DNA of 64,000 bases. It comes from Thiocapsa sp. (GTDB lineage: Bacteria > Pseudomonadota > Gammaproteobacteria > Chromatiales > Chromatiaceae). Under the pieces are notes generated by a model. That model was given only the letters and a program-made list of their open reading frames with translations. It was not told the DNA's origin and made no database searches. Of the stretch, positions 18,196 to 37,382 are shown piece by piece (within the stretch, counting starts at the first letter, position 1; the number at the start of each line of letters is the position of its first letter). A program made the position numbers and the translations under genes. The stretch is taken from positions 2,918,001-2,982,000 of the forward strand of contig NZ_CP073760.1 of the NCBI RefSeq assembly GCF_018399035.1. Direction: 5' to 3'.

Positions 18196-18620
18196 AGGGT
18201 AGCGAGCCCGACCTTTGGTGGACCGGCGTTTCCGTATTGCGGTCGACTGCAGCTGCGCCCCGCAGCCCATACGTACCGCCTGCAACGACCATCCCCCGAC
18301 TCGGACTCCGCACAACGGCGGGCTCGGGCGATCCTAATCGGATCGGCAGAGCAGCCCGCACCTCGCGCCTCGGCGTGGTAACGTCGGCGATTTTCGGCCC
18401 GAGCAGCGCAAGCGGTCTTTTCTGTGATCATCGACACGACAAGGGAGCCGGCACCAGCCGAAGGTCACGTCGAGCGATCCGATCGGGACTTCGGTGCGCG
18501 ATGGTGCAGGGTGCTGCAAGGCATGCCGACCCGCCAGGATCGTTCCGGCGAGCCAGTCGCTGCCGACCCCGAGGACGGGTGGGCCGGGCGCGCCCAGAGG
18601 CATTGGAGAGTCTGGTCGTC

Positions 18621-20045
18621 GTGAGTCCGTTCAGAGCCCTAAAGGAATCGTTCGGCAGCCTCGATGCCGAAACGGCGGCGGCGCTGGTTGAAGGCGTATC
18701 CGACATCGCCGTCGTGGTCGACCAGGCGGGCATCGTCTGCGACATCTCGTTCGGCAGCGAGGATCTCTCGAGCGAGCTCAGCAGGGACTGGATCGGACAG
18801 CCCTGGCTGACCACCGTGCTGCCGGAGAGCCGCGCGAATCTGGAGGCACTGCTCAGCGAGGCATCCGACTCACGCGTCACCCGTTGGCGACAAGTCAACC
18901 ATCCCTCCGTGCGCGGGACCGATATCCCGATCCAATACCGGGCCTTACGCCTCGGGACGAGCGTCGTGGCGCTGGGGCGCAACCTCCAGGGAATGGCCGC
19001 CCTGCAACAACAGCTCGTCGACGCCCAGCAAGCCCTCGAGCGCGACTATTGGCGCTTCCGCCAGGTCGAGACCCGTTATCGCTTGCTGTTTCGTATGGTC
19101 TCGGAGGCCATCCTCATCATCGATGCGCCGACCCAGCGAGTCGTCGAGGCGAATCCGGCCGCCGGACAGCTCCTCGGCGAATCGCCGACGCGGGTCATCG
19201 GTCGCCCTTTCCCTGAAGGATTCGACACCGAAGGCACACAGTCGATCAACGGCCTGCTGGCCGGTGTCCGTGCCGCCGGGCGGGCGGACGACGTGCGGGC
19301 CAAGCTCGCCGACGGTATGCAGGAGTTCTTGGTCTCGGCCTCGCTGCTGCGCCAGGAAAACCTCTCGTTTCTGCTCGTTCGTCTGTCGCCGATCATCGCC
19401 GAGAGCGCCACATTTACCCTGCCGGAGAACCGGGCTCGCTATCTGCGCGTCCTCGAGAACGCACCGGACTGTGTCGTCATCACGGATGCGGACGGACGGG
19501 TGTTGAGTGCCAACAACACCTTCCTGGCCTTGACCGAGATCGCCGCGGAGCAACAGGCGCGAGGCGAGTCGCTCGACCGTTGGCTCGGGCGTCCGGGCGT
19601 CGACCTCAATGTGCTGATGGCCAACCTGCGCCAGCACGACACGGTCCGGCTCTTCGCGACCACCTTGCGCGGCGAGTATGGATCCACGACCGATATCGAG
19701 ATCTCGGCCGCAGCGGTGCGCAACGGGGAGCGCCCCTATTTCGGGTTCTTCATCCGAGATGTCGGTCGTCGGCTCAATGCCGAGCAACCGACGAGTCCGG
19801 AGCAACCGCGCTGGCTCGATCAGCTCACCGACCGCGTCGGGCGGGTCCCGCTCAAGGAGCTGGTCCGTGAATCGACCGACACCATCGAGCGGCTCTGCAT
19901 CGAGGCGGCACTGAAGCTGACCGGAGACAATCGCGCCTCGGCGGCCGAGCTGCTGGGCTTGAGCCGCCAAAGCCTATACGTCAAAATCGATCGCTACGGC
20001 ATTTCAGACCAAGCAGCCGAGCCATCGGCACCATCCGACAAGTGA
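18621..20045 (+). CDS. ppsR: PpsR/CrtJ-family transcriptional repressor
   Basis: A 474-residue repressor of photosynthesis genes with an N-terminal PAS-like domain (about 20-125), a Q-linker coiled region (VDAQQALERDYWRFRQVETRY), two more PAS domains (about 155-270 and 275-385) and a C-terminal FIS-type helix-turn-helix (NRASAAELLGLSRQSLYVK, 437-455). Cysteines are at 40, 284 and 426. C426 lies at the start of the HTH domain, in the region of the redox-active cysteine described in CrtJ/PpsR. The GTG at 18621 was chosen because homology starts there and GGAGAG lies 10 bp upstream. It overlaps bchG, forming ppsR-bchG-bchP. Confidence 0.9.
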   Translation: MSPFRALKESFGSLDAETAAALVEGVSDIAVVVDQAGIVCDISFGSEDLSSELSRDWIGQPWLTTVLPESRANLEALLSEASDSRVTRWRQVNHPSVRGTDIPIQYRALRLGTSVVALGRNLQGMAALQQQLVDAQQALERDYWRFRQVETRYRLLFRMVSEAILIIDAPTQRVVEANPAAGQLLGESPTRVIGRPFPEGFDTEGTQSINGLLAGVRAAGRADDVRAKLADGMQEFLVSASLLRQENLSFLLVRLSPIIAESATFTLPENRARYLRVLENAPDCVVITDADGRVLSANNTFLALTEIAAEQQARGESLDRWLGRPGVDLNVLMANLRQHDTVRLFATTLRGEYGSTTDIEISAAAVRNGERPYFGFFIRDVGRRLNAEQPTSPEQPRWLDQLTDRVGRVPLKELVRESTDTIERLCIEAALKLTGDNRASAAELLGLSRQSLYVKIDRYGISDQAAEPSAPSDK

Positions 20046-20959
20046 GCGGCATGAATCGAAGCGCGTTACCCGCGGCAGCGTCCGCCTATCCGTCCATGCC
20101 TGCGATCTTGGAAGTGTCGCATCCCATCACCTGGTTCCCGCCGATGTGGGCCTTCGCCTGCGGGGTCGTGTCCTCGGGCGCACCCGTCGTGCAGCAGTGG
20201 TGGCTCCTGCTCGCCGGCGTGCTGCTGGCCGGCCCCCTGATGTGCGGAACGAGTCAGGTCGTCAACGACTGGTACGACCGTCATGTGGACGCCATCAACG
20301 AGCCCAACCGCCCGATCCCCTCGGGGCGGATCCCGGGGCGCTGGGGTCTGTATCTCGCACTCATCTGGACCACGCTCTCGCTGCTGCTCGCGTGGATGCT
20401 CGGACCCTGGGTCTTCGGGGCATCGCTGATCGGCATGGCTCTGGCGTGGGCCTACAGCGCACCGCCGTTCCGACTCAAGGGCAACGGCTGGTGGGGCAAC
20501 CTCGCCGTCGGATTCTCTTACGAGGGATTGGCCTGGGTGACCGGGGCCGCCGTGATGCTCGGCGGCGCCATGCCGGACTGGCGGATCCTCGCGCTCGCGG
20601 TGCTTTACAGCATCGGGGCGCACGGCATCATGACGCTCAACGATTTCAAAGCGATCGAGGGCGACAAACAGATGAACGTGCGCTCGCTGCCGGTTCAACT
20701 CGGCGTCGACGGGGCCGCGCGTCTCGCCAGCATCGTGATGGCCGTGCCTCAGGCGGTCGTGATTGCGCTCTTGTTCGCCTGGGACAAGCCGGCGCACGGG
20801 ATCGCCGTCGGCGTGGTCTTGCTGATTCAACTGCTGCTCATGATCCGTTTCCTGCAAAGTCCGCGCGAGCGTGCGACCTGGTTCAGCGGTCTCGGCGTCA
20901 GCGTCTATGTCACCGGGATGATGATCAGCGCCTTCGCCGTGCGCGGGCTTCTCGCTTGA
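20042..20959 (+). CDS. bchG: Bacteriochlorophyll synthase (geranylgeranyl transferase)
   Basis: A 305-residue UbiA-family prenyltransferase that esterifies bacteriochlorophyllide a with geranylgeranyl diphosphate. The first aspartate-rich motif is NDWYDRHVDAINEPNRPIPSG and the second is NDFKAIEGDKQMN; about eight membrane helices are visible. The GTG at 20042 overlaps the ppsR stop; an ATG at 20051 is the alternative. BchP, which reduces the tail, follows at 21055. The bch2 (PucC-family) gene often found between bchG and bchP in other purple bacteria is absent; only 95 bp separate them. Confidence 0.94.
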   Translation: MSGMNRSALPAAASAYPSMPAILEVSHPITWFPPMWAFACGVVSSGAPVVQQWWLLLAGVLLAGPLMCGTSQVVNDWYDRHVDAINEPNRPIPSGRIPGRWGLYLALIWTTLSLLLAWMLGPWVFGASLIGMALAWAYSAPPFRLKGNGWWGNLAVGFSYEGLAWVTGAAVMLGGAMPDWRILALAVLYSIGAHGIMTLNDFKAIEGDKQMNVRSLPVQLGVDGAARLASIVMAVPQAVVIALLFAWDKPAHGIAVGVVLLIQLLLMIRFLQSPRERATWFSGLGVSVYVTGMMISAFAVRGLLA

Positions 20960-21054: not shown

Positions 21055-22260
21055 ATGACAACTCTTGAAACATTCGACGTCGTGATCGTCGGCGGCGGGC
21101 CCGCCGGTGCAACTGCCGCAACCGATCTGGCCAAACGCGGTCGCCGCGTCCTCCTGCTCGATCGCGGCGGGCGCATCAAGCCCTGCGGCGGCGCCATTCC
21201 GCCGCAAGCGATGCGTGAGTTCGAGATCCCGGAATCCATGCTGGCGAACCAGGTCAACTCCGCCCGCATGGTCTCCCCGTCCGACCAGCGTGTGGACATG
21301 CCCATCAACGGCGGCTATGTCGGCATGGTGGATCGCGAGCATTTCGACGAGTGGCTGCGCGAACGCGCCGCGCAAGCCGGGGCCGAGCGGCGCACCGGCA
21401 CCTTCGAGGCGGTCGAGCGCGACACCGACGGCGTGGCACTCATCCGCTATCGACCGGGTGCCGGGCGCAGCGGCAACGCGTCCGAGCGGGTCCGCGCCCG
21501 TGCCGTGATCGGCGCCGACGGGGCACACTCCGCCGTCGGCAAGCAATGCGTTCCGGGCGCGGACAAGATCAAGTATGTCGCCGCCTATCACGAGATCGTG
21601 CGCACCCCGCCCAACGGCGGTCCGGCCGATTTCGACGGCACGCGCTGCGATGTCTATTATCAAGGCGACATCTCGCCGGACTTCTACGGCTGGGTCTTCC
21701 CGCACGGCGACACCACCAGCGTCGGCGTGGGCACCGCGGTCGAGGGCTTCTCGCTGAAGGGCGCAACCACCGAGCTGCGTCGCCGCGCCGGACTCGAGCA
21801 CGCCGAGACCCTGCGTCGCGAGGGCGCGCCCATCCCGCTGAAACCGCTCAAGTGCTGGGACAACGGACGTGACCTGGTCCTGGCCGGCGATGCCGCCGGG
21901 GTCGTGGCTCCCGCCTCGGGCGAGGGCATCTATTACGCACTGGTCGGCGGACGGCTGGCCGGTGACGCGGTCGACACCTTTCTCGCCACCGGCGACGCCC
22001 GCGCGCTCAAAACTGCGCGGACCCGCTTTATGAAAGCCCACGGCAAGGTGTTCTGGGTGTTGGGAATGATGCAGCACTTCTGGTACGCCAGCGACAAGCG
22101 TCGCGAGCGCTTCGTGAGCATGTGCAAAGACCCGGATGTGCAGTATCTGACCTGGGAAGCCTACATGAACAAGCGTCTGGTCCGTGCCAAGCCGGCGGCC
22201 CATCTGCGGATCTTCTTCAAGGACATGGCGCACCTCTTGGGTTTCGTCTCGGCACGCTGA
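21055..22260 (+). CDS. bchP: Geranylgeranyl reductase
   Basis: A 401-residue FAD flavoprotein that reduces the geranylgeranyl tail of BChl to phytyl. It has the dinucleotide-binding motif VVIVGGGPAGATAA at the N-terminus, GRIKPCGGAIPPQAM, the second flavin motif LVLAGDAAGVVAPASGEG, and the conserved C-terminal SMCKDPDVQYLTWEAYMNKRL. It is downstream of bchG on the same strand and followed after 39 bp by a small membrane protein gene. Confidence 0.95.
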   Translation: MTTLETFDVVIVGGGPAGATAATDLAKRGRRVLLLDRGGRIKPCGGAIPPQAMREFEIPESMLANQVNSARMVSPSDQRVDMPINGGYVGMVDREHFDEWLRERAAQAGAERRTGTFEAVERDTDGVALIRYRPGAGRSGNASERVRARAVIGADGAHSAVGKQCVPGADKIKYVAAYHEIVRTPPNGGPADFDGTRCDVYYQGDISPDFYGWVFPHGDTTSVGVGTAVEGFSLKGATTELRRRAGLEHAETLRREGAPIPLKPLKCWDNGRDLVLAGDAAGVVAPASGEGIYYALVGGRLAGDAVDTFLATGDARALKTARTRFMKAHGKVFWVLGMMQHFWYASDKRRERFVSMCKDPDVQYLTWEAYMNKRLVRAKPAAHLRIFFKDMAHLLGFVSAR

Positions 22261-22299: not shown

Positions 22300-22566
22300 A
22301 TGGCCGAGCTCTTCGCAAGCGGGCGCTTGATCGATCTGATTCTCGGCCTAGTCGTGGTCGAGGCGATCGCACTGACACTTTTCCACCGCCTGACGGGCAA
22401 AGGGGTCGCCCCGCGCGATCTGGTCGGACTGCTGCTCGCGGGCGCGTTCCTGCTGGTCGCCGTGCGCTTCGCCTTGACCGGCGCGGAGTGGACCTGGATC
22501 GGATTCTGGCTGGCCTTGGCCCTGATCGCACATCTCGCCGATCTAGCCCTGCGCTGGCGACCTTGA
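22300..22566 (+). CDS. Small membrane protein downstream of bchP
   Basis: An 88-residue protein with three hydrophobic segments (about 10-30, 41-60 and 66-84). Charged loops include TGKGVAPRD. The start ATG has GGGAGG upstream (22288-22293). I do not recognise a named family. Its place directly behind bchP suggests a link with late bacteriochlorophyll synthesis or membrane assembly, but this is inferred from position only. It converges on the phytochrome gene, with 14 bp between the stops and no visible terminator. Confidence 0.65.
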   Translation: MAELFASGRLIDLILGLVVVEAIALTLFHRLTGKGVAPRDLVGLLLAGAFLLVAVRFALTGAEWTWIGFWLALALIAHLADLALRWRP

Positions 22567-22580
22567 CCCATCCGCGTCAG

Positions 22581-24775
22581 TCAGTTACCGGCAGGCGGAT
22601 CGCCCTTTGTGTACTGCGCCGAATACCAGGCGAGGTGCTCGAGGAGCTGGGTGGTCCGCTGGACCGATGACTGAACGGCGTCGACCAATGCGGGCACCCG
22701 GCCCAAATCGACGCCGTCGGTCACCTCGAGCGCGGCAAGCTGCGCATTCGCGACAATGGCCGAGAGGAGCTCGCGGTACATGGGGTTGGCACTCCATTGC
22801 AACTGCTGGCGCATGATCTTCTGCTGCTCGAGCAGACCGGCCTGAACCCGATGCCGGGCATCCTCGGCCCTTTTGCGCTCGCTCAGGTCGGTCAGCAAGA
22901 GCACAAAGCCCAAGACCCGCTCCGGCGAAGAAAAGACTGGATCGGCGCGCACCAGAAACGGACGAAGGCCGATGTCCCCGGTGTTCAACTCCACCTCTCC
23001 GCGCCAAGCCCGACGATGCGTCACCAACTCATCGAGACGGCGGCGTGCCTCCACCTGCGTCGCCTCCGAGAACAAGTCCAGTAGATCATCCAGGCATCGC
23101 GGGCGGGATTGGTCCGGATGCAGAAGCCGCTCGAAGGACTGTGTGGTCAGCAAAAAAACGCCGTCCGCATCGGCGATGAGGATCGGCTGCTCGGAGGCCC
23201 CGACCTGAGAACGAACCTGGGCGAGCTGCGCTTGGGCGATCAGCACACGGACCGAGCGAAACTGCTGGATGACATCCGCCACGGATTCGCCGATCAGTCT
23301 GGCTGTCGCCAGATTTGCGGAGGTCCAGGGGTCGGATGTGCCCTCCACGACCTGATGCCATTGGGCGAAGGAACGCCGCGGCGAAAGCTGCGAGGGATTG
23401 TCTCCGCTGAAGGCTGGCTTGAAGGGATTGCCACCCCAAGTCACGGTCCGTACCCGCTCGGGACGACACCAGATGAGGTATTCGCCCGTGCAGCTCGAGA
23501 CCGGCGCCGCGAGGATTCCGCTCGCCACCGGGGTCAGATCCGCGAGGCGCAGCTCGTCGCGCCGCAGCGAGGCGGTCGCCATCACTGCGCGCCGCGGCTG
23601 CGTATCGAGCCAGGCGCCGATCTCGCGCAAGTCACGGGTTCCGGGAACATCTCCGGTGGTCAGAATCCTGCCGTCGCAGAGCAAGGCCGCTCCCGCTGCA
23701 TCGACGGTCTGAAGCAAGGTTCGGGGGTCGTCGAAGAGGGCGGATGTCCAGTCACCCTCGCGCGAGATCGCCTCCACCATCCGCTGCTCGAGGCGTCGAA
23801 CCGATAACTCCGCCTGAGCCTGGACAAAGCTCTCCAAAGCGGCGATGCGTGTCGCCACCGCCTCGGCCAGCAGCTCGCAGACGGCGCGAATCTCGTACTG
23901 CACGAAGCGCGGCCCGCAATGATGACACGCGATCAGCCCCCACAGCCTGCCCCCGACCAAGAGCGAGGCGACCAGGGTCGCCCCGACGCCCATGTTCTTC
24001 AAATATTGGATGTGGATCGGCGACATGCTGCGCAGGCTGCACAGCGACATATCCAGATCCTCCCCCGTGACGGGCGAGGCCCGGGGATGGATGCGCACCG
24101 GTGCGTAGTCGACATCGACCAAGAGGCGGATCCGGTTGCGCTCGTAGAGCCGACGCGCGATTTGAGGGATATCGGAATCCGGGTAACGGTTGCCGAGGTA
24201 GGCATCGAGCTCGGGCTCGCGCTGCTCGGAAAAGATCTCGCCGTGGCCCTCGTCATCGAACCGATAGACCATGACCCGATCGTAGCCGGCAATCGACTTG
24301 AAGATGCGCGCGGCCTCGTCGCACAAGGACCGCAACGAAGCCGATGCGATGATCGTCTGCAGCGCGGCATTGATCCGAGCCGATAGGTCGACCGCGGCCC
24401 CCACGGCTCGAGCTCGACGACCAACCCACCCGCCGGCGGACGATGCACGATGGCATCGAAATCCCGCGCCGAGTCCACCCCCACCGGCGTTCGCAACACC
24501 AGCGGGATCTGCGCCAGATCATCGTCGAGTCTCGGACGAACCCTCGCTGCCAGGATCGGTACCAGCTCGTCGAGACGGGCCCCGATCGGATCCCGGTCGA
24601 GCCGCAACAGGGAGCGCGCATTCTCGCTGGCCTGGATCACGACAAGATCCGGCTCCGACAGAACGATCAGGGCGCCGTGCGGTTGGATGGATGCGGCGAG
24701 CTGAATCTGCTCGCGCTCGCAATTGGAAAGATCGGCGTGCCCGAACGCCGGCGAGGAGGAAAGATCGGGGGTCAA
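22581..24775 (-). pseudogene. Bacteriophytochrome, BphP1-like, split by a one-base frameshift
   Basis: A biliverdin photoreceptor. The N-terminal PAS domain is in one frame from a TTG at 24773-24775, with the chromophore-binding cysteine at residue 19 (LSNCEREQIQ). The rest is in another frame from about 24402: GAF (GNRYPDSDIPQIARR and PIHIQYLKNMGVGATL), PHY (LSPRRSFAQWH), a PAS domain and a C-terminal helical region (YRELLSAIVANAQLAALE). There is no HATPase domain, so output would be by protein contact rather than phosphotransfer, as for BphP1 of Rhodopseudomonas. Restoring one G in the G5 tract at 24398-24402 gives a continuous protein of about 731 residues. This could be a real null allele, a sequencing error or slippage. 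Confidence 0.8.
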
Positions 24776-24794
24776 TTGGGCTGCACTCCGATGC

Positions 24795-24987
24795 TTAAAC
24801 CGCGCCCAGCGCGGTATGCGATGTTTTTGGATGGGATCGGCCCCGGCAGACTTGACGACCGTTGGAGTCGGCGCGGTTTAAAATATTAAACAATATATCC
24901 TTTTAAACCGCGCCCCCGCTAAGGGTCGTGGATGCACCAAACGTCGAGCGCACTTGAACATGAGCATCTCGCTCTGGACGCGGTTTA
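24795..24987. repeat. Mosaic TAAACCGCG repeat, copy 1
   Basis: Two modules, each starting (T)TAAACCGCG and ending CGCGGTTTA: type II at 24795-24880 and type I at 24904-24987, separated by an AT-rich spacer. Type II carries the core GCGGTATGCGATGTTTTTGG. Related copies lie at 50367, 51512 and 62581. The right end supplies the TAA stop of the second ppsR gene (24985-24987). It fills the gap between that gene and the phytochrome. Confidence 0.85.
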
Positions 24988-26385
24988 GGTTCGATATCCC
25001 GGGTCCGTGATCGTATCCTGATCCATCCCGTAGCGCTTGAGCTTGACGTAGAGACTCTGACGACTCAAGCCCAAAAGGTCGGCGGTTGCGGTGCGATTGC
25101 CGCGCGTGAGGTCCAACGCCTCTTCGATATAGTGCTGCTCGAGCACGCTGACCGCCTCGTCCACCAGTGCACGCAAGGGACCTTTGCCGATCCGCCCGGT
25201 CAAGGCCGCCAAGCGTCCGCCGAGACGTTCGTCGTTGTCTTGCCGCGGCAGGCGCCTGCCGACATCACGGAACAAGATTCCGATCGACGTCGGATCGCTG
25301 TCCAGATCGCCAGCCGCCGAGATCTCGACCTCCGTCTCGGCACCGAGATCGCCGCGGAGTCTGGTCAAGAACGGACGTACGACACCGAGTCGCGCGATCG
25401 TCGTCAACAGCACGCCCATATCGGCGCCCGGCCGGTCGAGCCAACGCCCCAGGCTCTGCTGCAACACCCCGCCCGAGGTCGGCATTTGAACGAGGTCGAG
25501 GAAGGCCGGATTCACCCAACGAATCATGCCACCTCGATCGGTCACGACGAATCCATCGGGCAAGCGCTCGATCAGGATGTCGGCGAGCTCGCCTTCGGCA
25601 GACTGCCGAGACGCCAACGCGGCCTCGGTGGCGGTCAGTTGGAGAAGGTATAGTGAACCGGCCTCGGACGCGAGCCGCGAAGCACGCACCATCCAAGCCG
25701 CTCGCTCCGTGCCGAGATGCAGCAGAATCCCGGGCGCGCTGCCGTGATCGTCGAGCCGTCGCAGCATCGCGCGAAAGAGGTCGCGCTCGCCGTCGACCAA
25801 CTCGCCGGAAAAGTCTTTTCCGACCAGCGACCGCTGCGCTCCGGTCGGACCAACGAGGGCGCGTGACGCAGCCGGGTTGACGTCCTGGATCGCGAGACTG
25901 TCGACTCGCAACAGAATGACCGCGTCGCTGGAGGATCCGAATAAGAGCCGATACCGTGTCTCGACCTCGCGCAGCTTCCAATAATCACGCTCCATCGTCT
26001 GCTGCGCCTCCACGAGGCGCGTCTGCAGCTCGGTCACGGCTTGGAGACTGCGGCCGATGGCAACCAGACCGGCATCGCCTCCCAAACGCACCGCGGTATA
26101 CTCGATCGGAAGACGCAAACCGGATGGAAAGATCTGGTTGACCTGCCGGAAGGCCGAGACACCCGAATCCCGAGCGTCGTCGACGAGGCGCTGCAGTCCC
26201 TCGCTTCCGAACGACTCGACCGTCTCGGCCCAGGGACGCCCGACCCAGGCATCCAGGGCCTCGCCGCGAATCGCAGGCGACAGCGCCGCCCGCCGGATCA
26301 CACCGGCATGATCGAGAAAGATGGTGACGTCGGGCTGGGCCAGATTGGACATGGACATGGACGTATAGACCTGATCACGCTTCAA
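24985..26385 (-). CDS. Second PpsR/CrtJ-family regulator, cysteine-free
   Basis: A 466-residue paralogue of the PpsR at 18621. It has a shortened N-terminal PAS-like region, the coiled linker VEAQQTMERDYWKLREVETRY, two PAS domains and a FIS-type HTH (NRTATADLLGLSRQSLYVKLKRYGM). It contains no cysteine at all; the HTH position occupied by C426 in the first protein is tyrosine here (EQHYIEEAL). The start is uncertain: TTG at 26385, or ATG at 26358 or 26352. It lies upstream of the phytochrome on the same strand, the arrangement known for PpsR2/BphP1 pairs. Loss of redox cysteines with retention of the HTH suggests control by the photoreceptor rather than oxygen. Confidence 0.88.
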   Translation of the reverse strand: MKRDQVYTSMSMSNLAQPDVTIFLDHAGVIRRAALSPAIRGEALDAWVGRPWAETVESFGSEGLQRLVDDARDSGVSAFRQVNQIFPSGLRLPIEYTAVRLGGDAGLVAIGRSLQAVTELQTRLVEAQQTMERDYWKLREVETRYRLLFGSSSDAVILLRVDSLAIQDVNPAASRALVGPTGAQRSLVGKDFSGELVDGERDLFRAMLRRLDDHGSAPGILLHLGTERAAWMVRASRLASEAGSLYLLQLTATEAALASRQSAEGELADILIERLPDGFVVTDRGGMIRWVNPAFLDLVQMPTSGGVLQQSLGRWLDRPGADMGVLLTTIARLGVVRPFLTRLRGDLGAETEVEISAAGDLDSDPTSIGILFRDVGRRLPRQDNDERLGGRLAALTGRIGKGPLRALVDEAVSVLEQHYIEEALDLTRGNRTATADLLGLSRQSLYVKLKRYGMDQDTITDPGYRT

Positions 26386-26497: not shown

Positions 26498-26574
26498 GCC
26501 CTCGTAGCTCAGTTGGATAGAGCGATCGCCTCCTAAGCGGTAGGTCACAGGTTCAATTCCTGTCGAGGGCGCCA
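26498..26574 (+). tRNA. tRNA-Arg (anticodon CCU)
   Basis: A 77-nt cloverleaf with acceptor GCCCTCG/CGAGGGC, D-arm AGCTCAGTTGGATAGAGC, anticodon loop CTCCTAA (anticodon CCT), T-arm around GGTTCAATTCC and an encoded 3' CCA. Its 3' end is duplicated at 37436-37458, marking it as the attachment site of the mobile element that follows. Confidence 0.95.
26552..26574. other. attL, 3' end of tRNA-Arg
   Basis: A 23-bp segment repeated at 37436-37458 with two mismatches; the last 16 bp, CCTGTCGAGGGCGCCA, are identical. It marks the left boundary of the integrated element and preserves an intact tRNA. Confidence 0.85.
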
Positions 26575-26690
26575 TTAACCTGTAAAGCAACGTACAGCAA
26601 GATACGAACCACCCGCCTAAGTCACCGATTTTCCGGTAAAGTTTGTAAAGCAAGATACGGCAAGGAACATTGACAGCCGACGCCTTCCGA

Positions 26691-26737
26691 GGGTAACTAT
26701 GCGGGTAACCGCGTACACGCCTAAAGCAGTTACCCGC
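26691..26737. promoter_or_regulatory. GGGTAAC site cluster before the integrase
   Basis: GGGTAAC occurs at 26691-26697 and 26703-26709, and inverted at 26729-26735. The second and third form a 9-bp inverted repeat GCGGGTAAC/GTTACCCGC. The pair recurs near the right end (37364-37382). Candidate integrase arm-type or excisionase/regulator sites. Confidence 0.5.
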
Positions 26738-26739
26738 AA

Positions 26740-27954
26740 ATGCCCCTGACAGATGCAGCGATCCGCAACGCCAAGCCGGGCGCCAAGCCGGTCAAACTCA
26801 GCGACGGCGCGGGTTTGTTCCTGCTGATCACAACGAAAGACCGGCGCTGGTGGAGACTGCGCTACCGCTTCGACAGCAAGGAAAAAATGCTCTCGCTCGG
26901 GACGTACCCGCAAGTTACCCTCAAGGACGCCCGACAGAAGCGCGACGAGGCCCGCGCGCTGCTCGCCAAGGGCATCGATCCGTCCGCACAACGCCAAGCC
27001 GAAAAGACCGCCGACGCTGGCGGGGATCGCTTCGCCGCCGTTGCCGAAGAATGGTTCAAAAAGTTCTCACCACGATGGGTACCCGGCTACCGGCTAAAGA
27101 TTCGCGCGTGGCTCGATAAGGATCTGATCCCCTATCTCGGGTTTCTGCCGACCGACACGATCACCGCCCCCGAGCTGCTGGCCGTGGCGCGTCGTGTCGA
27201 GGCCCGGGGCGCGCTGCACACCGCCCACCGCCTGATACGCTGCGCTGGCCAGATCTTCCGCTATGCCGTTGCCACCGGCCGCGCGACCCGCGACCCGTCC
27301 GGGGATCTTCGCGGAGCATTGCCACCCGCCGACGCTGGACACTTCGCATCGGTAACCGACCCCGCCCGTGTCGCCGAGCTGCTGCGCATGATCGACGGTT
27401 ACACCGGCACCCCGACCGTACGCGCCGCCCTTCGCCTTGCGCCGCTGGTCTTCGTCCGACCCGGGGAGCTGCGCAAAGCTGAATGGGAAGCCATCGATCT
27501 CGACGCGGCACAGTGGAGGTATACCGTCACCAAGACCAGGACCGAGCATATCGTTCCCCTGTCCACCCAATCCGTCGAGATCCTCCGGGAGCTCCACCCG
27601 CTCACTGGACACGGGCGCTATGTCTTCCCGTCGGCCCGTGGCGATGATCGACCGATGTCCGAGAACGCGGTTCTCGCCGCGATGCGTCGTCTCGGAATCC
27701 CGAAAGACGAGATGAGTGGTCACGGCTTCCGCGCGATGGCTCGCACGATTCTCGACGAGGTGCTCGGCTACCGGCCCGACCTCATCGAGCACCAGCTCGC
27801 GCATGCCGTGCGAGATCCCAACGGCCGCGCCTACAACCGCACCGCCCACCTTGCGGCCCGCACGACCATGATGCAGGGATGGGCGGATTATCTGGACGGC
27901 ATCAAGATCGAGGGCTCGAACGTGGTCGGAATCCGCCGCGCGGGTAACCGCTGA
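26740..27954 (+). CDS. P4-family tyrosine integrase
   Basis: A 404-residue site-specific recombinase with the N-terminal DUF4102 arm-binding domain (residues 1-80, including GLFLLI and KMLSLGTYPQVTLKDAR), a SAM-like core-binding domain and a C-terminal catalytic domain. Catalytic residues are visible in RPGELRKAEW (R), HGFRAMART (H, R), IEHQLAH (H) and YNRTAH (Y). It sits 165 bp from the tRNA-Arg gene and is transcribed away from it, the usual layout for tRNA-targeting elements. GGGTAAC repeats flank both ends of the gene. Confidence 0.95.
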   Translation: MPLTDAAIRNAKPGAKPVKLSDGAGLFLLITTKDRRWWRLRYRFDSKEKMLSLGTYPQVTLKDARQKRDEARALLAKGIDPSAQRQAEKTADAGGDRFAAVAEEWFKKFSPRWVPGYRLKIRAWLDKDLIPYLGFLPTDTITAPELLAVARRVEARGALHTAHRLIRCAGQIFRYAVATGRATRDPSGDLRGALPPADAGHFASVTDPARVAELLRMIDGYTGTPTVRAALRLAPLVFVRPGELRKAEWEAIDLDAAQWRYTVTKTRTEHIVPLSTQSVEILRELHPLTGHGRYVFPSARGDDRPMSENAVLAAMRRLGIPKDEMSGHGFRAMARTILDEVLGYRPDLIEHQLAHAVRDPNGRAYNRTAHLAARTTMMQGWADYLDGIKIEGSNVVGIRRAGNR

Positions 27955-27982
27955 GGGTAACAACCGAGTCCGGAAACAATCT

Positions 27983-28090
27983 CGGCGACGTGAAACCTGA
28001 CGCTACCGTCGCTACCGACGCTACCGCTTTGAATCCGAAGCCGAAAAGCGGTAGCGACAAGCCGAAATCCAGACGCTACCGTTCGCTACC
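27983..28090. repeat. GGTAGCG/CGCTACC heptamer cluster, locus A
   Basis: CGCTACC occurs at 28001, 28010 and 28019 (9-bp period) and again at 28074 and 28084. An inverted GGTAGCG is at 28050. CGCTACCGCTTT (28019-28030) and its exact complement (28045-28056) form a 12-bp stem with a 14-nt loop. The whole ~108-bp block is a near copy of locus B at 30830-30937. Apart from this block and GGGTAAC sites, 27955-28192 holds no supported gene. Confidence 0.85.
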
Positions 28091-28192
28091 TCGCTGCTGG
28101 CGGATGCGGGTAACCGCCAACGAAATAGGCCCCGAAGCGGCTCCACCCGCGTCGAGGCCCTGGACAACACCGACCTATCGTAGAGGTCCGGC

Positions 28193-28648
28193 ATGACCGA
28201 AGTCGATGATACCGCTCTCGACGAGCTGATAGAACAAGCGCAGAAAGGCGACCAGGCCGCTACCGGCGAGTTATGCAGGATCGCCTCTCGCGCGCTCTAC
28301 GCAGGCGGCCCGGTCGAGATGAATCCAGTTCTACGCCGATACCTCGCCGCGTCCCTGTCGCGCGTCAAAGATGCAGGACTCGCTCGCGCCTTTGCGCCGT
28401 TGGGTCCGCAGCCTGCTTACATCCGAAAGGCCCGGAAGGAGATGAACGATCTCTCGCTGGTGATTTGGGTCGATCGCATCCGCAGCACGATGGGTCTGGT
28501 GACATTCAAGGACGGCACCCCGGGCCCCGTCTTCGAACTCGTCGGCAAGATGCTCGGGCGCTTCCTGCGACAGCCAGAAACAGGTATTACGCCTGGAAAC
28601 ATTCCCGGAAAACGGCCAAAACGCCGAAAAATCGGGAATGGCCAATGA
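28193..28648 (+). CDS. Hypothetical protein of the mobile element
   Basis: 151 residues; no family recognised. The N-terminal half is helical and acidic (DDTALDELIEQAQKGDQAAT). The middle shows RRYLAASLSRVKDAGLARAFAP and the tail is basic (GKRPKRRKIG). AGAGG precedes the ATG at a good distance. Codon use resembles neighbouring genes. It lies between the integrase and the AlpA regulator. Confidence 0.55.
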   Translation: MTEVDDTALDELIEQAQKGDQAATGELCRIASRALYAGGPVEMNPVLRRYLAASLSRVKDAGLARAFAPLGPQPAYIRKARKEMNDLSLVIWVDRIRSTMGLVTFKDGTPGPVFELVGKMLGRFLRQPETGITPGNIPGKRPKRRKIGNGQ

Positions 28649-28704
28649 AGTAGACCGAGCGCAAGAATGGCTCCACGGTGTACGACGACCTACGGAGCCA
28701 GCAA

Positions 28705-28911
28705 ATGAAGACCCCTCCCGCCCCCACCCGAATCATCCGGATACCCGAAGCCAAGCGCCTCGTCGGCGTCTCCCGAACCACCCTCTACACATGGATGCGC
28801 TCCGGTCAATTCCCTGCGGCAGTCCGCATCGGACCCCGCGCGGTCGGCTGGCGTGAATCCGACATCACAGACTGGATGCACTCGCGCGACCGCGTTGGAG
28901 GTGCAGCATGA
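28705..28911 (+). CDS. AlpA-family transcriptional regulator
   Basis: A 68-residue MerR-like winged HTH protein of the AlpA/Cox type, which in related elements controls integrase expression and excision. The fold is visible in RIPEAKRLVGVSRTTLYTWMRSGQFPAAVRIGPRAVGWRE, with the typical wing GWRESDITDWM. The ATG at 28705 is used because GGAG lies 7 nt upstream and homology begins just after it. The stop overlaps the next gene by 4 bp. Confidence 0.88.
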   Translation: MKTPPAPTRIIRIPEAKRLVGVSRTTLYTWMRSGQFPAAVRIGPRAVGWRESDITDWMHSRDRVGGAA

Positions 28912-29249
28912 CCCTCGTCGACACCCTTGATTCCATCGCTCGGGAGATGGACGCGGTAACGCTATTGATCGGGGGCGCCGCCGATTCACCGTGCTATGGA
29001 GTGGCGGATCTCGCCCCGGGTCTGCACGCCATCATGCGCAGGTGGACCGACACCCTTGATTCAATCGCCGCATCGGCCTGCGACTCCGAGACTTTCGACC
29101 TTGAGACCTTCGTCGTCAGTCTGACACCGGCCGAAGCCGCCGCAGTACGCGCTCAAGCTGCTGCGCATGCGGTCACCCCGGAGGCTGAGATCCTCGTCAT
29201 GTTGGACGCAGCAATCCAACGGCATCAAGCCAGCGAGCGGACATCATGA
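28908..29249 (+). CDS. Hypothetical protein
   Basis: 113 residues, unrecognised. TDTLDSIA appears near the middle and an almost identical VDTLDSIA near the start, so the N-terminal part may be an internal duplication. The C-terminal half is alanine-rich and helical (VSLTPAEAAAVRAQAAAHA). Its start overlaps the AlpA stop and its stop overlaps the next small frame, indicating coupled translation. Confidence 0.55.
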   Translation: MTLVDTLDSIAREMDAVTLLIGGAADSPCYGVADLAPGLHAIMRRWTDTLDSIAASACDSETFDLETFVVSLTPAEAAAVRAQAAAHAVTPEAEILVMLDAAIQRHQASERTS

Positions 29250-29377
29250 GCAGCGCAACGAGAAACGCCCCGATCGGCGCAGAACCGATCGAGGCGTTGA
29301 GTGTGGCCGCCAAGCCAAGTATCCTAAAGCCGTCCCCTGGTGCGCTACCAACGCCCCAGGGACGAAGCTCCGACTGA
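29246..29377 (+). CDS. Possible 43-residue protein
   Basis: A short frame starting in an ATGA overlap with the preceding gene. It encodes a proline- and alanine-rich peptide (KPSILKPSPGALPTPQ). No homology recognised; support is only the overlap typical of this operon. Confidence 0.3.
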   Translation: MSSATRNAPIGAEPIEALSVAAKPSILKPSPGALPTPQGRSSD

Positions 29378-29479
29378 GTAAGAGTCCGAGCACCGGCGAG
29401 ACAATGATACCTGTCAGGGTAACCTTTGTCGCGCCCCTGCCCGCCTTCCTTGGTCGGTTTCCAAACTCTGGAGACCACC

Positions 29480-29860
29480 ATGCAACAACACGACGACCCC
29501 ACCGACACCCCCTTGTTCCGCGCGGGCTACGCCCTGCTGAAACAGCTCCCGAGCGCCTACGGGATCTCGTCCAATTACGGCGCTATCGACCTGACCGAAG
29601 ACGACGAGATGCGCGCGGCCGTCATCGCCGCGGTCGAGCCCATCCTCAAGCGCCGGATCCAGGTCGCCAAAGGCGAGCCCAACCCACCGGACCCCGCCGA
29701 CGAGGCGTTGACCGTCGCACTGGCTGCATTCCTCGCCGACGAAGACGTCCGGCGCCTACAGGCCCTCGCCGACGAGCAGTATCTCGGCAGTCCGGGTCTA
29801 GCCGTCGCCGAGATCCTGCAAGCCAGCCTTGACGATCTCGTCGGGGAGGTAGAGCCATGA
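29480..29860 (+). CDS. Hypothetical protein upstream of the primase
   Basis: 126 residues, acidic, no family recognised. Contains FRAGYALLKQLPSAYGISS, an ADEALTVALAAFLADEDVRRLQAL helix and a C-terminal AVAEILQASLDDLVGEVEP. The ATG at 29480 has GGAG 6 nt upstream and is preferred to an upstream in-frame start. Its stop overlaps the primase start (ATGA), so the two are probably co-translated. Confidence 0.6.
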   Translation: MQQHDDPTDTPLFRAGYALLKQLPSAYGISSNYGAIDLTEDDEMRAAVIAAVEPILKRRIQVAKGEPNPPDPADEALTVALAAFLADEDVRRLQALADEQYLGSPGLAVAEILQASLDDLVGEVEP

Positions 29861-30774
29861 GCGCAGCTACCGCAGCAGCAACCCCTCCGACTTGGCGTGT
29901 CATCGACGACTTCGCCGCAGCAATCGCCGCGGCCGGTCTCGGGTCTCCCGACATCATCGCCGACGGACGCATCCATCGGTTCCGCACGGCAGACGACAAG
30001 GCCGGAAAACTGAGCGGCTGGTATCTGCTGCACCTAGATCGATGCGCGGCCGGCGCCTTCGGATCCTGGAAGGTCGGGTTTCAACAGACCTGGAGCGCCA
30101 AGACCGAAGCCGACGAGAAGATCGACTTCCGCGCGATGATCGAGGACGCCCGTCGACAGCGCGCTGTCGAGCAGCAGGCGACACACCGGGACGCAGCCTA
30201 TACCGCCTCCGAGATCTGGTCATCCTGTCGTCGAGCAACCCCTGATCACCCCTATCTGATCGCCAAGGAGATCAAGCCGCACATCGCCCGCGTCGATTCC
30301 GGTAACCGCCTGGTGCTGCCGATCGGCGACGGCTCCGCACTCACCAGCCTTCAATTCATCGGCGCCGACGGCGCCAAGAGGTTTCTCTCGGGCGGCCGGA
30401 TTTCCGGCTGCTTCTTCACCTTGAAGGGCGACGGGCGCCGCGAGTCGATCCTGATCGGCGAGGGCTTCGCCACCGTCGCGACCATGACGGAGGTCACCGG
30501 CGCACCGGGCGTTGTCGCCTTCAATGCGGGGAATTTGCTCCCGGTCGCCAAGAGGATTCGACGGATCAGGCCGCGCGCCGAGATCGTTGTCATCGGCGAC
30601 AACGACCGCTGGACGGAGGGCAACCCAGGCCGCACCAAGGCCCGAGCTGCTGCTTTGGAAATCGGCGCCAAGCTGCTGCTCCCGAATTTCGAGGGCATGG
30701 ATTTCAGCGACAAGCCGACCGATTGGAACGACTGGTACAGGATCGCCCGCGCGGCAGGGAGGGTTTCAGCATGA
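29857..30774 (+). CDS. TOPRIM-domain primase-like protein
   Basis: A 305-residue protein of the phage/plasmid primase type. An N-terminal domain reads the template (GRIHRFRTADDKAGKLSGWYLLH). The C-terminal TOPRIM domain has its catalytic glutamate in LIGEGFATVATM and its acidic pair in VVIGDND. It probably makes primers for element replication. The ATG overlaps the preceding stop; its own stop overlaps the ATG at 30771. Functional pairing with the DUF927 protein downstream is typical of P4-like elements. Confidence 0.85.
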   Translation: MSAATAAATPPTWRVIDDFAAAIAAAGLGSPDIIADGRIHRFRTADDKAGKLSGWYLLHLDRCAAGAFGSWKVGFQQTWSAKTEADEKIDFRAMIEDARRQRAVEQQATHRDAAYTASEIWSSCRRATPDHPYLIAKEIKPHIARVDSGNRLVLPIGDGSALTSLQFIGADGAKRFLSGGRISGCFFTLKGDGRRESILIGEGFATVATMTEVTGAPGVVAFNAGNLLPVAKRIRRIRPRAEIVVIGDNDRWTEGNPGRTKARAAALEIGAKLLLPNFEGMDFSDKPTDWNDWYRIARAAGRVSA

Positions 30775-31175
30775 GTTCGACGACGAAAAGACCGCGCCGC
30801 GGCATCAGGATCAAGCCGGAAGCAATTTCGGGCGACGTGAAACCTGACGCTACCGTCGCTACCGACGCTACCGCTCGGAATTCAAAGGCTAAAAGCGGTA
30901 GCGAAAAGCCGAAATCCGGACGCTACCGTTCGCTACCCCGGACGCTGCCGATGAGGCTGCCGACCTTGGCGCGGATCCGCTGGCGGATGCTGTCGACCCG
31001 GCGACGGAGCCGCCGAACGAGGATGACATCACCGGCACCGAGCCGCCCGAGATCGATCAATGCCCTTGTTGGAGGGTTTATCTGGACTGGTGGATGGCCG
31101 GCGCCGCCAAGCGCCGCCCCGGCGTCTACTATCACGGCGTCGAGGAGGATCTGGACGATAAGAAAAAGCGGGTAG
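30771..31175 (+). CDS. Frame opening the DUF927 gene, possibly frameshifted
   Basis: Starts in an ATGA overlap with the primase and reads SSTTKRPRRGIRIKPEAISG before entering heptamer cluster B (DATVATDAT). After the cluster its sequence looks non-natural. The adjacent frame encodes ADEAADLGADPLADAVD and CPCWRVYLDWW, a natural lead-in to the DUF927 protein but without any start codon. A one-base shift just after the repeats would join them. Either one frameshifted gene or a short leader protein. Confidence 0.4.
   Translation: MSSTTKRPRRGIRIKPEAISGDVKPDATVATDATARNSKAKSGSEKPKSGRYRSLPRTLPMRLPTLARIRWRMLSTRRRSRRTRMTSPAPSRPRSINALVGGFIWTGGWPAPPSAAPASTITASRRIWTIRKSG
30830..30937. repeat. GGTAGCG/CGCTACC heptamer cluster, locus B
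   Basis: CGCTACC at 30848, 30857 and 30866 (9-bp period) and at 30921 and 30931. An inverted GGTAGCG is at 30897-30903. CGCTACCGCT (30866-30875) and AGCGGTAGCG (30894-30903) form a 10-bp stem. The block is nearly identical to locus A and lies between the primase and DUF927 coding regions. Confidence 0.85.
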
Positions 31176-32776
31176 ATCTTTGGCTGTGCTCGCCCCTGAT
31201 CCTGGACGCGACAACCTTCGATCGGCGCGGAGAGTCCTATGGTCGACTGCTGCGGTTCCGCGACGTTCGCGGCCGTTGGCATGAGTGGAATTGTCCGATG
31301 TACCTGCTCCGCGGATCGTGCGAGGAGCTGCGCGGGGAACTCCTCGGGCTCGGGCTCGAAATCGACCATAAGGCCCGCGGGCGCCTCCCGAATTATCTGA
31401 TGCACCGCGCACCCAAGCGCGAAGTCATCGCCGCCCTGTCGCTCGGCTGGCACGACGACACATTCGTGTTCCCTGACGAGGCGATCGGACCCACCGAGAT
31501 CAGGTATCAGTCCGAATCCGCGACCATCGCAGACTTCGACCAGCGCGGCACGCTCGCCGAGTGGCGCGATAGCGTCTCGGTGCTGGCGAGCGACAACACC
31601 GTCATGACCCTCGCGATCTCGGCGTCGTTCGCTGGACCGCTGCTCGCAAGGGTTCACATGGAATCGTGCGGTCTGCATTTTCACGGCGACAGCTCGGGCG
31701 GCAAGACGACCGCGGTACAGGCTGCCGTTTCGGTCTGGGGTTCTCGCGATATGTTGCGCACCTGGCGCGGCACGAACAACGGGCTCGAAGCGGCCGCCGC
31801 CGAATCGACCGACACGATGCTCTCGCTCGACGAGATCAACGAGGCCAACGGCAAGGAGATCGGCGCCATCGTCTACGCCCTGGCCAACGGCCGCGGCAAG
31901 TCGAGGGCAACTCGGTCGGGAGGCGCGCGACGCATCGCCCGATGGCGCACCGTTGTCTTGTCGACCGGCGAGAAAACGCTGGAGGCGCGCATGGCCGAAG
32001 ACGGCGCTCGCCATCATGCAGGACAGGATGTCCGTCTCCTCAACGTGCCAACCGACGGCAGACGCTACGGCACCTTCGACTCGATTCACGGGCGCGACAG
32101 CGCGCGCGCGTTCGCCGACGAGATCAAGACCAGCTCGGGACGCTACTACGGCACGGCCGGGCGCGCGTTCGTGCGCTACCTCGTCGCCAACATCGCCGAA
32201 GACTTTGGCGCAATGGTCAAAACCCTGACCGACCGCATGCCCGCGACCGAAGGCCAAGAGGCTCGTGTTGCGCGGCAGTTTGCCCTGATCGGCACGGCCG
32301 GCGAGCTTGCGACAACGGCCGGCATCACGGGATGGGTACCCGGCGCAGCAACGAAGTCTGCGATGGACGCCTTCGTCATCTGGCGAGATGCGCGCGGCAA
32401 GGGCAACGTCGAGACGACCAAGATACTGAGCGCCGTTCGCGACTTCATCGAGCGGTACGGCGACCTTCGGTTTACGGACTCATCCTACCCTGACGCTCGA
32501 CCGCTCAGAGGAGATCGCGCGGGCTATACGCGCGTCATCGACGGACGTGTCGTCTACATGCTGACACCGGGCGGACTTGGTGAGGCGATCAAGGGTTTTG
32601 ATCGCGCTCGCGCGCTGGATGCGTTGGACGCTGCCGGCTGGTTGCTCTACACGTCCAAGGGCACCAAAGGCGAGCGCCGAACACAATCGAAGATCGGAGG
32701 ACGGAATGTCGGGTTGTATTCGATCCAGCTACCGGATGACGAAAACGTCGATGTCGAGCGCAAGGAGGCAGCATGA
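31094..32776 (+). CDS. DUF927-domain helicase-like protein
   Basis: At least 560 residues. A nucleotide-binding core is clear: Walker A in HFHGDSSGGKTTA (195-207) and Walker B-like LSLDEINEANGKE. Between them lies SVWGSRDMLRTWRGTNNGLE, characteristic of DUF927 proteins that accompany primases in P4-like elements. The C-terminal part resembles a winged-helix region (DALDAAGWLLYTSKGTKGERR). The ATG at 31094 is the first start in frame, but natural-looking sequence (CPCWRVYLDWW) extends upstream of it, so the true N-terminus is probably fused to the frame at 30771. Presumed replicative helicase of the element. Confidence 0.82.
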   Translation: MAGAAKRRPGVYYHGVEEDLDDKKKRVDLWLCSPLILDATTFDRRGESYGRLLRFRDVRGRWHEWNCPMYLLRGSCEELRGELLGLGLEIDHKARGRLPNYLMHRAPKREVIAALSLGWHDDTFVFPDEAIGPTEIRYQSESATIADFDQRGTLAEWRDSVSVLASDNTVMTLAISASFAGPLLARVHMESCGLHFHGDSSGGKTTAVQAAVSVWGSRDMLRTWRGTNNGLEAAAAESTDTMLSLDEINEANGKEIGAIVYALANGRGKSRATRSGGARRIARWRTVVLSTGEKTLEARMAEDGARHHAGQDVRLLNVPTDGRRYGTFDSIHGRDSARAFADEIKTSSGRYYGTAGRAFVRYLVANIAEDFGAMVKTLTDRMPATEGQEARVARQFALIGTAGELATTAGITGWVPGAATKSAMDAFVIWRDARGKGNVETTKILSAVRDFIERYGDLRFTDSSYPDARPLRGDRAGYTRVIDGRVVYMLTPGGLGEAIKGFDRARALDALDAAGWLLYTSKGTKGERRTQSKIGGRNVGLYSIQLPDDENVDVERKEAA

Positions 32777-33360
32777 CCCTCTTGGAGCGATTCTCAGAAA
32801 TTGTCGATGGAGCATTAGGCCCGGTAGCGACGGTAGCGACTCCAAAAACACCAGACGCTACCGATATTCACATTCAAAAACAAAGCGGTAGCGTCGGTAG
32901 CGACGGTAGCGACCGGAAACACTCCGACGAAACGACGACCCGCACGCTAGGCCCGGTAGCGACGGTAGCGACTCCGAAAACACCAGACGCTACCGATATT
33001 CGCATTTCAAAACAAAGCGGTAGCGTCGGTAGCGACAGTAGCGACCGGAAACACTCCGACGAAACGACGACCCGCACGCTACCGCAGCTTTCCGCCGACG
33101 ACCATGCAGTGATCCGCGAAGCGATCGAGGAACGCGCGGCCATCATCGAGTTCGATGCAGGCGAGCCGCGCGCGGTCGCCGAACACCAGGCCGCCGCGGC
33201 GATGCGGATCTACAAGTTCAGGCTCGCCGACAAGCCGGACACATGGCTGACGATGTTGGCGCCGGGTTGCGAGCTTGATCAGGCCCACCGTGATCTGGTG
33301 CTGAGGTTCGGCGCCGATCGCATGCTCGAAGTTTGTTCCGCCAATCCACCAACGAGGTAA
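32773..33360 (+). CDS. Hypothetical protein with two 44-residue repeats made of heptamers
   Basis: 195 residues. Residues ~16-103 are two near-identical 44-residue repeats (GPVATVATPKTPDATDI... and SGSVGSDGSDRKHSDETTTRT) encoded by the heptamer-rich 132-bp tandem repeat. The unique C-terminal domain (LSADDHAVIREAIEERAAIIEFD and AAAMRIYKFRLADKPDTWLTML) looks structured but is not recognised. The start overlaps the DUF927 stop. The repeat part seems to be a by-product of DNA repeats lying inside the gene. Confidence 0.65.
   Translation: MTLLERFSEIVDGALGPVATVATPKTPDATDIHIQKQSGSVGSDGSDRKHSDETTTRTLGPVATVATPKTPDATDIRISKQSGSVGSDSSDRKHSDETTTRTLPQLSADDHAVIREAIEERAAIIEFDAGEPRAVAEHQAAAAMRIYKFRLADKPDTWLTMLAPGCELDQAHRDLVLRFGADRMLEVCSANPPTR
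32816..33083. repeat. GGTAGCG heptamer cluster, locus C, with 132-bp tandem duplication
   Basis: GGTAGCG occurs at 32823, 32832, 32887, 32896, 32905, 32955, 32964, 33019 and 33028, plus an AGTAGCG variant at 33037. CGCTACC occurs at 32856, 32988 and 33077. Neighbouring copies within a group are 9 bp apart. Two near-identical 132-bp units start at about 32818 and 32950. Confidence 0.88.
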
Positions 33361-33366
33361 CACCTG

Positions 33367-33555
33367 ATGCTCGTACAGCATTCGTGCGTCGGCCCTGCAC
33401 GCCTGTACCGGGTCACCGAGACACTGGACGCCGATGTCCGGATCTCGAATGGACTCGCAACGCCCGAGATTCGCGAGGCACTCGCCAGACACTTGAACGA
33501 GATGCTCCAGCGACTCTCGACCACCAACACGACCATCACCGAGGTATCCCGATGA
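33367..33555 (+). CDS. Small hypothetical protein
   Basis: 62 residues, ATG 6 bp after the previous stop; contains LATPEIREALARHLNEMLQRL, a likely helix. No family recognised. Its stop overlaps the next gene, consistent with an operon of small element genes. Confidence 0.5.
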   Translation: MLVQHSCVGPARLYRVTETLDADVRISNGLATPEIREALARHLNEMLQRLSTTNTTITEVSR

Positions 33556-33851
33556 CCCTTCCCGGAAGTCACGAACGTGCGCTCGTCGATCTTGCTCGCG
33601 ATGCGGCCCGCTCCGAATTGGCCGCAGAAGCTGCGCGCTCGGAAGCGCGACGGCTCCGCGCGCAGGTCCGCCGCGTGGAGGTCGAGCGCGAGACAGCTCT
33701 CGCGCAACGCGATGATGCGCGAGCAGCGCTTGCTCGGCTGCGCCAAGAGCTGCTTCTGTTCCAGGCGGATGCTCAGCGTGAGCTTGAGGTCGAGCTCGAA
33801 TCCGTCGGGCGGCTCCGCGACCTGATCGACGACGACGGCGTCGGTCTGTAA
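33552..33851 (+). CDS. Small coiled-coil protein
   Basis: 99 residues starting in an ATGA overlap with the previous gene. Almost the whole chain is a predicted coiled coil with heptad pattern and many Arg/Glu/Ala (ARSEARRLRAQVRRVEVERE). This is the kind of small structural or adaptor protein common in phages. No specific function can be assigned. Confidence 0.55.
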   Translation: MTLPGSHERALVDLARDAARSELAAEAARSEARRLRAQVRRVEVERETALAQRDDARAALARLRQELLLFQADAQRELEVELESVGRLRDLIDDDGVGL

Positions 33852-33904
33852 CCACCATGCCCTGCTGCGGCAGCAGCAGGGCGAACACCGCAAGGTAACC
33901 GACG

Positions 33905-34237
33905 ATGAGATCGAAGACGAAAGCCAGATCGAAGAAGCAGCAGAGCGGGCCGGCCGATGTTGACCCTTGGCGCGAGATCCTCGCCGATCCCGAGATCATG
34001 AGCCGGCGCACCCCGGCCGATCTGGAAACCGACGACATCGCCAGCGATGGAGACGCGGCTTGGTTCCTGGCCCATCCCGGCGAGCGGATGCGGGCTCGTC
34101 ACCCTCTCAATGGCGAATTCGCTTGGGCAACCCCGTCCGGCTGCGACTGCTACGCCGTGCTGGTGTTCGAGGTCGCACCAGGCGTTCGTGCTCGTGGTCC
34201 GCTCTTTCGCCCGCTCGCACCGAGCGAAGTGAATTGA
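33905..34237 (+). CDS. Hypothetical protein
   Basis: 110 residues with a basic N-terminus (RSKTKARSKKQQ) and a compact C-terminal region containing DAAWFLAHPGERMRARHPLNGEF and GCDCYAVLVFEVAPGVRARGPL. The HPGERMRAR stretch recurs in small proteins of integrative elements but has no known function. An ATG with no strong Shine-Dalgarno is used. Confidence 0.55.
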   Translation: MRSKTKARSKKQQSGPADVDPWREILADPEIMSRRTPADLETDDIASDGDAAWFLAHPGERMRARHPLNGEFAWATPSGCDCYAVLVFEVAPGVRARGPLFRPLAPSEVN

Positions 34238-34451
34238 AAGCTGAGGGTCACGGTTTTGAATCCGCCTCTAACTGCCCCCGATGATTTCTATAACTACATG
34301 CTTTCTCGGAAGTTTTCAGCAGGATGGGACCCTGCACACCCCTCAAATACCACGGGAGATTCCAGCCCCGGATTTCGACAGGATTTCATTCCCTTAGGGT
34401 CTCGGCAGCAGATAACCGAAGTATTTGCATCGAAACATCGAGAAACCCGAT

Positions 34452-34898
34452 ATGAAACCGTCTGAGCGCCTCGCCATGCTTGAGCGAGTAATCACCGCGG
34501 CCCGCGTCATCGACCCGACCGCCGCCGCGTTCCTGGCTGATGCGCTGCACCAGGCTGCAACAGGATCTGCCGAGACGATCGACGAGGGTCTCGGGCTGCG
34601 CGGCCCCGGCATCAAGCGCATTGCCTGGCACGCGCGGATGACCCGCCGGAATGAGCACCTCCGTAACGCTTTCACGTTGACGCCGTTCGGCGAGAACACC
34701 GAGACCGACGACCGGATCAAGGATCTCGTCGGCGCTATCCAACGTTTCGAGGCGTCATCATGGAAGTGGTCGCAGCATTACCCTGAGCCGCCTGAAAGGC
34801 TGTCGCCGAGGGCTTGCGAACTTTGGCACGCGATGCGCAACGGCCCCTGCCCCGCATCGGAATCTCAGTTGAAAAGGATCGTTCTCGACAGGCAGTGA
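34452..34898 (+). CDS. Hypothetical protein
   Basis: 148 residues, helical. Starts MKPSERLAMLERVITAARV and contains IKRIAWHARMTRRNEHLRNAF and, near the end, RLSPRACELWHAMRNGPCP. The last segment resembles a winged or DNA-contacting end, but no family is recognised. The 214 bp upstream hold only a weak TTG-initiated frame. Confidence 0.5.
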   Translation: MKPSERLAMLERVITAARVIDPTAAAFLADALHQAATGSAETIDEGLGLRGPGIKRIAWHARMTRRNEHLRNAFTLTPFGENTETDDRIKDLVGAIQRFEASSWKWSQHYPEPPERLSPRACELWHAMRNGPCPASESQLKRIVLDRQ

Positions 34899-34972
34899 TC
34901 ACCAACCCCCGGGTTTTGATGGCGTATCTCTGGGTTCAGAATTGTGTCATTCCATCCACCCAGGACACAGAG

Positions 34973-35724: not shown

Positions 35725-35725
35725 C

Positions 35726-37027: not shown

Positions 37028-37040
37028 TGGTCGAGATCAC

Positions 37041-37340: not shown

Positions 37341-37363
37341 GGCGACCACCCGTGACCACGTGC

Positions 37364-37382
37364 GGGTAACTATGAGGGTAAC
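37364..37382. promoter_or_regulatory. GGGTAAC pair at the right end
   Basis: GGGTAACTATGAGGGTAAC here differs by one base from GGGTAACTATGCGGGTAAC at 26691-26709. Both pairs have 12-bp spacing and the same orientation, and each lies close to an att site (61 bp before the identical core of attR and 117 bp after attL). Candidate arm-type integrase sites. Confidence 0.5.

Follow-up and report, generated by a model that had tools for sequence, protein, structure and literature searches.

A probable BphP1/PpsR2-type light-regulation module, with a frameshifted phytochrome gene, in the photosynthesis gene cluster of a Thiocapsa genome

In Rhodopseudomonas palustris, a kinase-less type-3 bacteriophytochrome (BphP1; PAS-GAF-PHY-PAS-HOS) adjoins PpsR2, a PpsR without the HTH cysteine; the photosynthesis gene cluster that holds the pair also contains ppsR1-bchG-bchP. 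The binding between RpBphP1 and PpsR2 is light-dependent and is proposed to occur through HOS (PMC6899989). The BrBphP/PpsR2/PpsR1 system of Bradyrhizobium has the same gene neighbourhood, which includes ppsR1-bchG-bchP, and the same two PpsR clades, but PpsR1 is reported to be an activator there (PMC10569730). Rhodobacter, in contrast, has a single CrtJ/PpsR under redox control (together with AppA in R. sphaeroides) and no paired phytochrome (PMC6899989). The Thiocapsa locus described here shares the protein types and gene neighbourhood given for R. palustris, but belongs to a purple sulfur gammaproteobacterium and has its module convergent with bchP; with Rhodobacter it shares the PAS-PAS-HTH repressor, the TGTN12ACA operators and, in PpsR1, the redox cysteine position. 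The pair is a further member of the known module, in the Chromatiaceae, where the searchable papers do not describe it (subscription papers lay outside the search, and novelty for the group is unproven). A textbook light-control module is thereby extended to purple sulfur bacteria and shown to be old and widespread across Proteobacteria.

The window, that is, the whole stretch of 64,000 nucleotides that was analysed, comes from a Thiocapsa genome of 5.73 Mb in a single contig, which encodes one phytochrome and one heme oxygenase. The genes ppsR1, bchG and bchP follow one another on the plus strand, a neighbourhood common to alpha- and betaproteobacterial loci, and are followed by bphP and ppsR2 on the minus strand:

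471 to 514, no strand given: PpsR-type operator in tandem form (TGTN12ACA-N8-TGTN12ACA), with a light-harvesting operon downstream of it.
18237 to 20045, plus strand: ppsR1, the main PpsR, with three cysteines, the HTH cysteine present; the true start lies inside the ORF.
20042 to 20959, plus strand: bchG, for bacteriochlorophyll synthase, flanked by ppsR1 and bchP.
21055 to 22260, plus strand: bchP, geranylgeranyl reductase, convergent with bphP.
22581 to 24404, minus strand: 3' part of bphP, encoding GAF-PHY-PAS and a C-terminal two-helix output region, kinase-less.
22725 to 22748, minus strand: codons for NAQLAALE in the HOS-like region.
23999 to 24775, minus strand: 5' part of bphP, encoding PAS_2 with the bilin-binding cysteine (LSNCEREQ); the frame exits the gene past the G-run.
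24398 to 24402, minus strand: site of a one-base deletion in bphP, five Gs here and six in T. marina (L034/L065), which places PAS and GAF in different frames.
24985 to 26385, minus strand: ppsR2, a 466-residue PpsR paralogue with N-PAS, PAS, PAS and a Fis-type HTH; cysteine-free, with tyrosine at the HTH-cysteine position.

The original prediction, made from the DNA letters, had claimed a PpsR paralogue with no cysteine in its 466 residues and a main PpsR with three cysteines, one at the HTH. Both statements hold: the ppsR2 product has zero cysteines, with PAS and Fis-type HTH domains found, and the HTH cysteine of PpsR1 lies in IERLCIEAA. In a tree of 116 PpsR rows, PpsR1 and PpsR2 are the two sides of one branch (100% SH-aLRT), with each window copy on its own side; this tree and the BphP tree below are 'quick' trees with support by SH-aLRT only. 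The 20 Chromatiaceae PpsR2 rows form one group (90% SH-aLRT). Nothing here supports a recent acquisition of the module from either Bradyrhizobium or Rhodopseudomonas, as the Chromatiaceae PpsR2 proteins are a group of their own and, in the BphP tree, the Chromatiaceae BphPs branch outside the group holding the alphaproteobacterial ones.

The residue at the HTH position is cysteine in 28 of 36 PpsR1 proteins (serine in 7, alanine in 1), while among 80 PpsR2 proteins it is tyrosine in 60, as in the window copy, cysteine in 14, and serine, histidine and phenylalanine in 2 each; several of the cysteine-bearing PpsR2 proteins are from Acetobacteraceae or Roseomonadaceae. Most PpsR1 proteins examined from Bradyrhizobium and Rhodopseudomonas carry serine here, whereas the Thiocapsa PpsR1 keeps the cysteine, so that Thiocapsa shows a sharper contrast between PpsR1 and PpsR2 than the textbook cases do and offers a clean natural comparison of a PpsR with and one without the redox cysteine. 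Being 'cysteine-free' is ruled out as the defining trait of PpsR2, since only 43 of 100 PpsR2-type sequences have zero cysteines; judged from these sequences, the conserved trait is the absent HTH cysteine, and lacking cysteine altogether is a local detail.

The phytochrome had been described as a kinase-less PAS-GAF-PHY-PAS photoreceptor directly downstream of the PpsR paralogue. Its position, on the same strand, is confirmed, as are GAF, PHY, PAS and the lack of a kinase domain; it is not, however, one open frame, since the 607-residue ORF at 22581-24404 lacks the N-terminal chromophore PAS, and PAS_2 sits in the ORF at 23999-24775, in another frame. The Pfam architecture is that of the Rhodopseudomonas rhenobacensis orthologue (PAS present, no HisKA/HATPase), the alignment with Rhodopseudomonas runs full-length, and the closest solved structure is RpBphP1 (665 bits over GAF-PHY-PAS, compared with at most 267 for other phytochromes). 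The BphP tree (75 rows) places the window copy in the type-3 clade with Rhodopseudomonas and Bradyrhizobium, and this clade is split from 13 other phytochromes, kinase-bearing ones included, with 99% SH-aLRT; the protein groups with BphP1, away from kinase or GGDEF phytochromes. The original prediction had overlooked the C-terminal two-helix, HOS-like output region, for which a structure model of moderate quality (mean pLDDT 65, about 55-65 in the HOS-like helices, used for helix layout only) predicts two helices, 540-561 and 569-599. The motif NAQLAALE falls within this predicted helix pair; 71 of 79 named type-3 proteins carry it exactly, and it does not vary among the 18 that were aligned. 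HOS is the region of RpBphP1 proposed for PpsR2 binding (PMC6899989), and NAQLAALE is a candidate PpsR2-binding or dimer surface.

The supposed linkage between the two genes proved general. In a survey of 194 genomes of the family, with type-3 phytochromes and PpsR2-type proteins assigned by reading the score gap, PpsR2-type proteins occur in 27 genomes and type-3 phytochromes likewise in 27; in all 22 genomes that hold both, ppsR2 and bphP are adjacent on one strand. Five genomes (G035, G107, G127, G156 and G083) have a PpsR2-type protein and no type-3 phytochrome. Among 80 named loci from Alpha-, Beta- and Gammaproteobacteria, which were found by the phytochrome alone and are best matches, no random sample, ppsR2 lies directly upstream of bphP in 78 of the 79 that are informative; L071 is ended by a contig edge, and L123 (Beijerinckia) has a PpsR1-type protein only. 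Elsewhere in the class, only 4 sampled genomes have any PpsR at the threshold used. We consider it likely that the locus represents the light-regulation module BphP1/PpsR2 known from photosynthesis gene clusters, long established in Chromatiaceae and no one-off.

In an intact module that works as in R. palustris, PpsR2 would repress photosynthesis genes via TGTN12ACA operators, red/far-red light acting on biliverdin would switch BphP, and BphP would bind PpsR2 through the HOS helices, whereupon repression would be lifted; PpsR1, with its HTH cysteine, would carry the oxygen/redox signal. The HTH residues of PpsR1 and PpsR2 are distributed as such a redox/light split predicts, and by analogy with known proteins (PMC6899989) we infer that the difference reflects a division of labour. 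The original prediction of a split between a redox-sensing and a light-sensing repressor, parallel to BphP1/PpsR2, is thus backed by the clades, the linkage and the HTH residue, but qualified by the broken bphP frame and the local nature of the cysteine-freeness. Of the two outcomes that it had named as refuting, a phytochrome of kinase-bearing type and related genomes without linkage, neither occurred. The activator role reported for Bradyrhizobium PpsR1 (PMC10569730) means that roles should not be copied blindly. We regard it as unlikely that the pair works without light control in purple sulfur bacteria, with PpsR2 as a second oxygen-type repressor: PpsR2 does persist in the five genomes without a type-3 BphP, and several other phytochromes have lost chromophore-site residues, but intact type-3 members conserve the bilin cysteine, the PxSDIP aspartate, the pocket histidine and the PRxSF tongue, and PpsR2 lacks the HTH cysteine used in redox sensing.

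The genome contains five perfect tandem operators of the form TGTN12ACA-N8-TGTN12ACA, confined to a stretch of 18 kb (G000:C1 positions 2900162, 2904651, 2909519, 2910176 and 2918471, the last being window 471-514), and the reversed-pattern control gave 0. By inspection of nearby ORFs, they lie upstream of three light-harvesting operons, a crtE-like gene and a carotenoid desaturase-like gene, in favour of the module reading. Against it, the motif scan found no perfect tandem operator close to ppsR2, to bphP or to any of the window's bch genes.

The bphP reading frame of this genome is not intact: the G-run at 24398-24402 is one G short (window GAGCCGTGGGGGCC, T. marina GAGCCGTGGGGGGCC), in flanking DNA that is nearly identical. 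In each of the other seven Thiocapsa genomes with bphP, the gene is one uninterrupted frame (737-777 residues), and a comparison of the window's bphP with that of T. marina over 606 codons gives a dN/dS of 0.14, indicating purifying selection; together with the intact sister copies, this value implies that the break is either recent or an artefact. Programmed frameshifting is ruled out by the uninterrupted frame of the relatives. Across the bphP segment, from about 22500 to 24500, identity to T. marina is 96-97%, whereas most of the segment's flanks are closer to a sister genome, G185, which suggests that the allele probably arrived by recombination, as a gene replacement from a T. marina type.

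The chance that the deletion merely reflects faulty sequencing or assembly, and that BphP and PpsR2 form a normal, working pair in the strain, is put at a little short of even. A single base in a G-run is a common type of error, purifying selection acts on the coding sequence and none of the seven other Thiocapsa copies is broken. On the other hand, clear in-gene frameshifts are very few: the comparison with G185 covered 400 kb, of which about 260 kb was conserved coding sequence, and the only cases accepted were bphP and one of 2 bases. Eight cases were judged by eye, and most automatic candidates turned out to be antisense or extended ORFs with no break inside a gene. This low count also weakens poor assembly as a blanket explanation. 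Moreover, R. palustris CGA009 is known to carry a frame-shifted bphP1 (PMC6899989), and bphP is disrupted in another related Chromatiaceae MAG (L046/L100), by an in-frame TAG near residue 332, with ppsR2 intact. On balance, a real mutation is slightly preferred over an assembly error, and the BphP-PpsR2 module is probably broken in this strain. With the frame broken, the light arm may be dead in this genome; if the deletion is real, there would be no full-length photoreceptor, and PpsR2 would act without a light-dependent antagonist. A shorter GAF-PHY-PAS-HOS protein made from the internal GTG at 24404, binding PpsR2 without light control, seems quite improbable. An ORF with that start codon exists, and a light-independent role is conceivable since other Chromatiaceae keep chromophore-site-deficient relatives under selection, but no relative is known to use the GTG start, and the bphP frame was intact until recently.

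In sister genera, six phytochromes of the family (from G027, G104, G075, G101, G070 and G122) lack the bilin cysteine, the PxSDIP aspartate and the PRxSF tongue motif, and that of G049 (L219) also lacks the PxSDIP and tongue motifs. The deficient phytochromes (L050, L051, L053, L056, L057, L058 and L219) retain the spot next to bchP, but ppsR2 is absent from 5 of the 7 genomes and NAQLAALE has drifted in all 7. The dN/dS of the first six, in the three pairs compared, is 0.10-0.19, similar to intact controls (0.10-0.17), indicating purifying selection. Six of the seven form one group in the BphP tree (98%), although their long branches leave a single origin uncertain. From these sequences, they are predicted to be an interesting light-independent offshoot, which may matter more than the main finding: deficient yet selected, they give a route to studying the function of a phytochrome output module that no longer responds to light. 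We tentatively suggest, though the balance leans somewhat against it, that purple sulfur bacteria repeatedly disconnect the light switch from light, by a frameshift or stop in some strains and elsewhere by a selected, chromophore-site-deficient phytochrome that keeps its place in the photosynthesis gene cluster, whether PpsR2 is present or not, and would probably use a signal other than light to regulate PpsR or another target.

Next to ppsR2, an integrative element of ~10.9 kb (window 26554-37457), with a tyrosine integrase and phage-type primases, is inserted in the adjoining tRNA-Arg(CCT), an imperfect copy of whose 3' end lies at 37438-37457.
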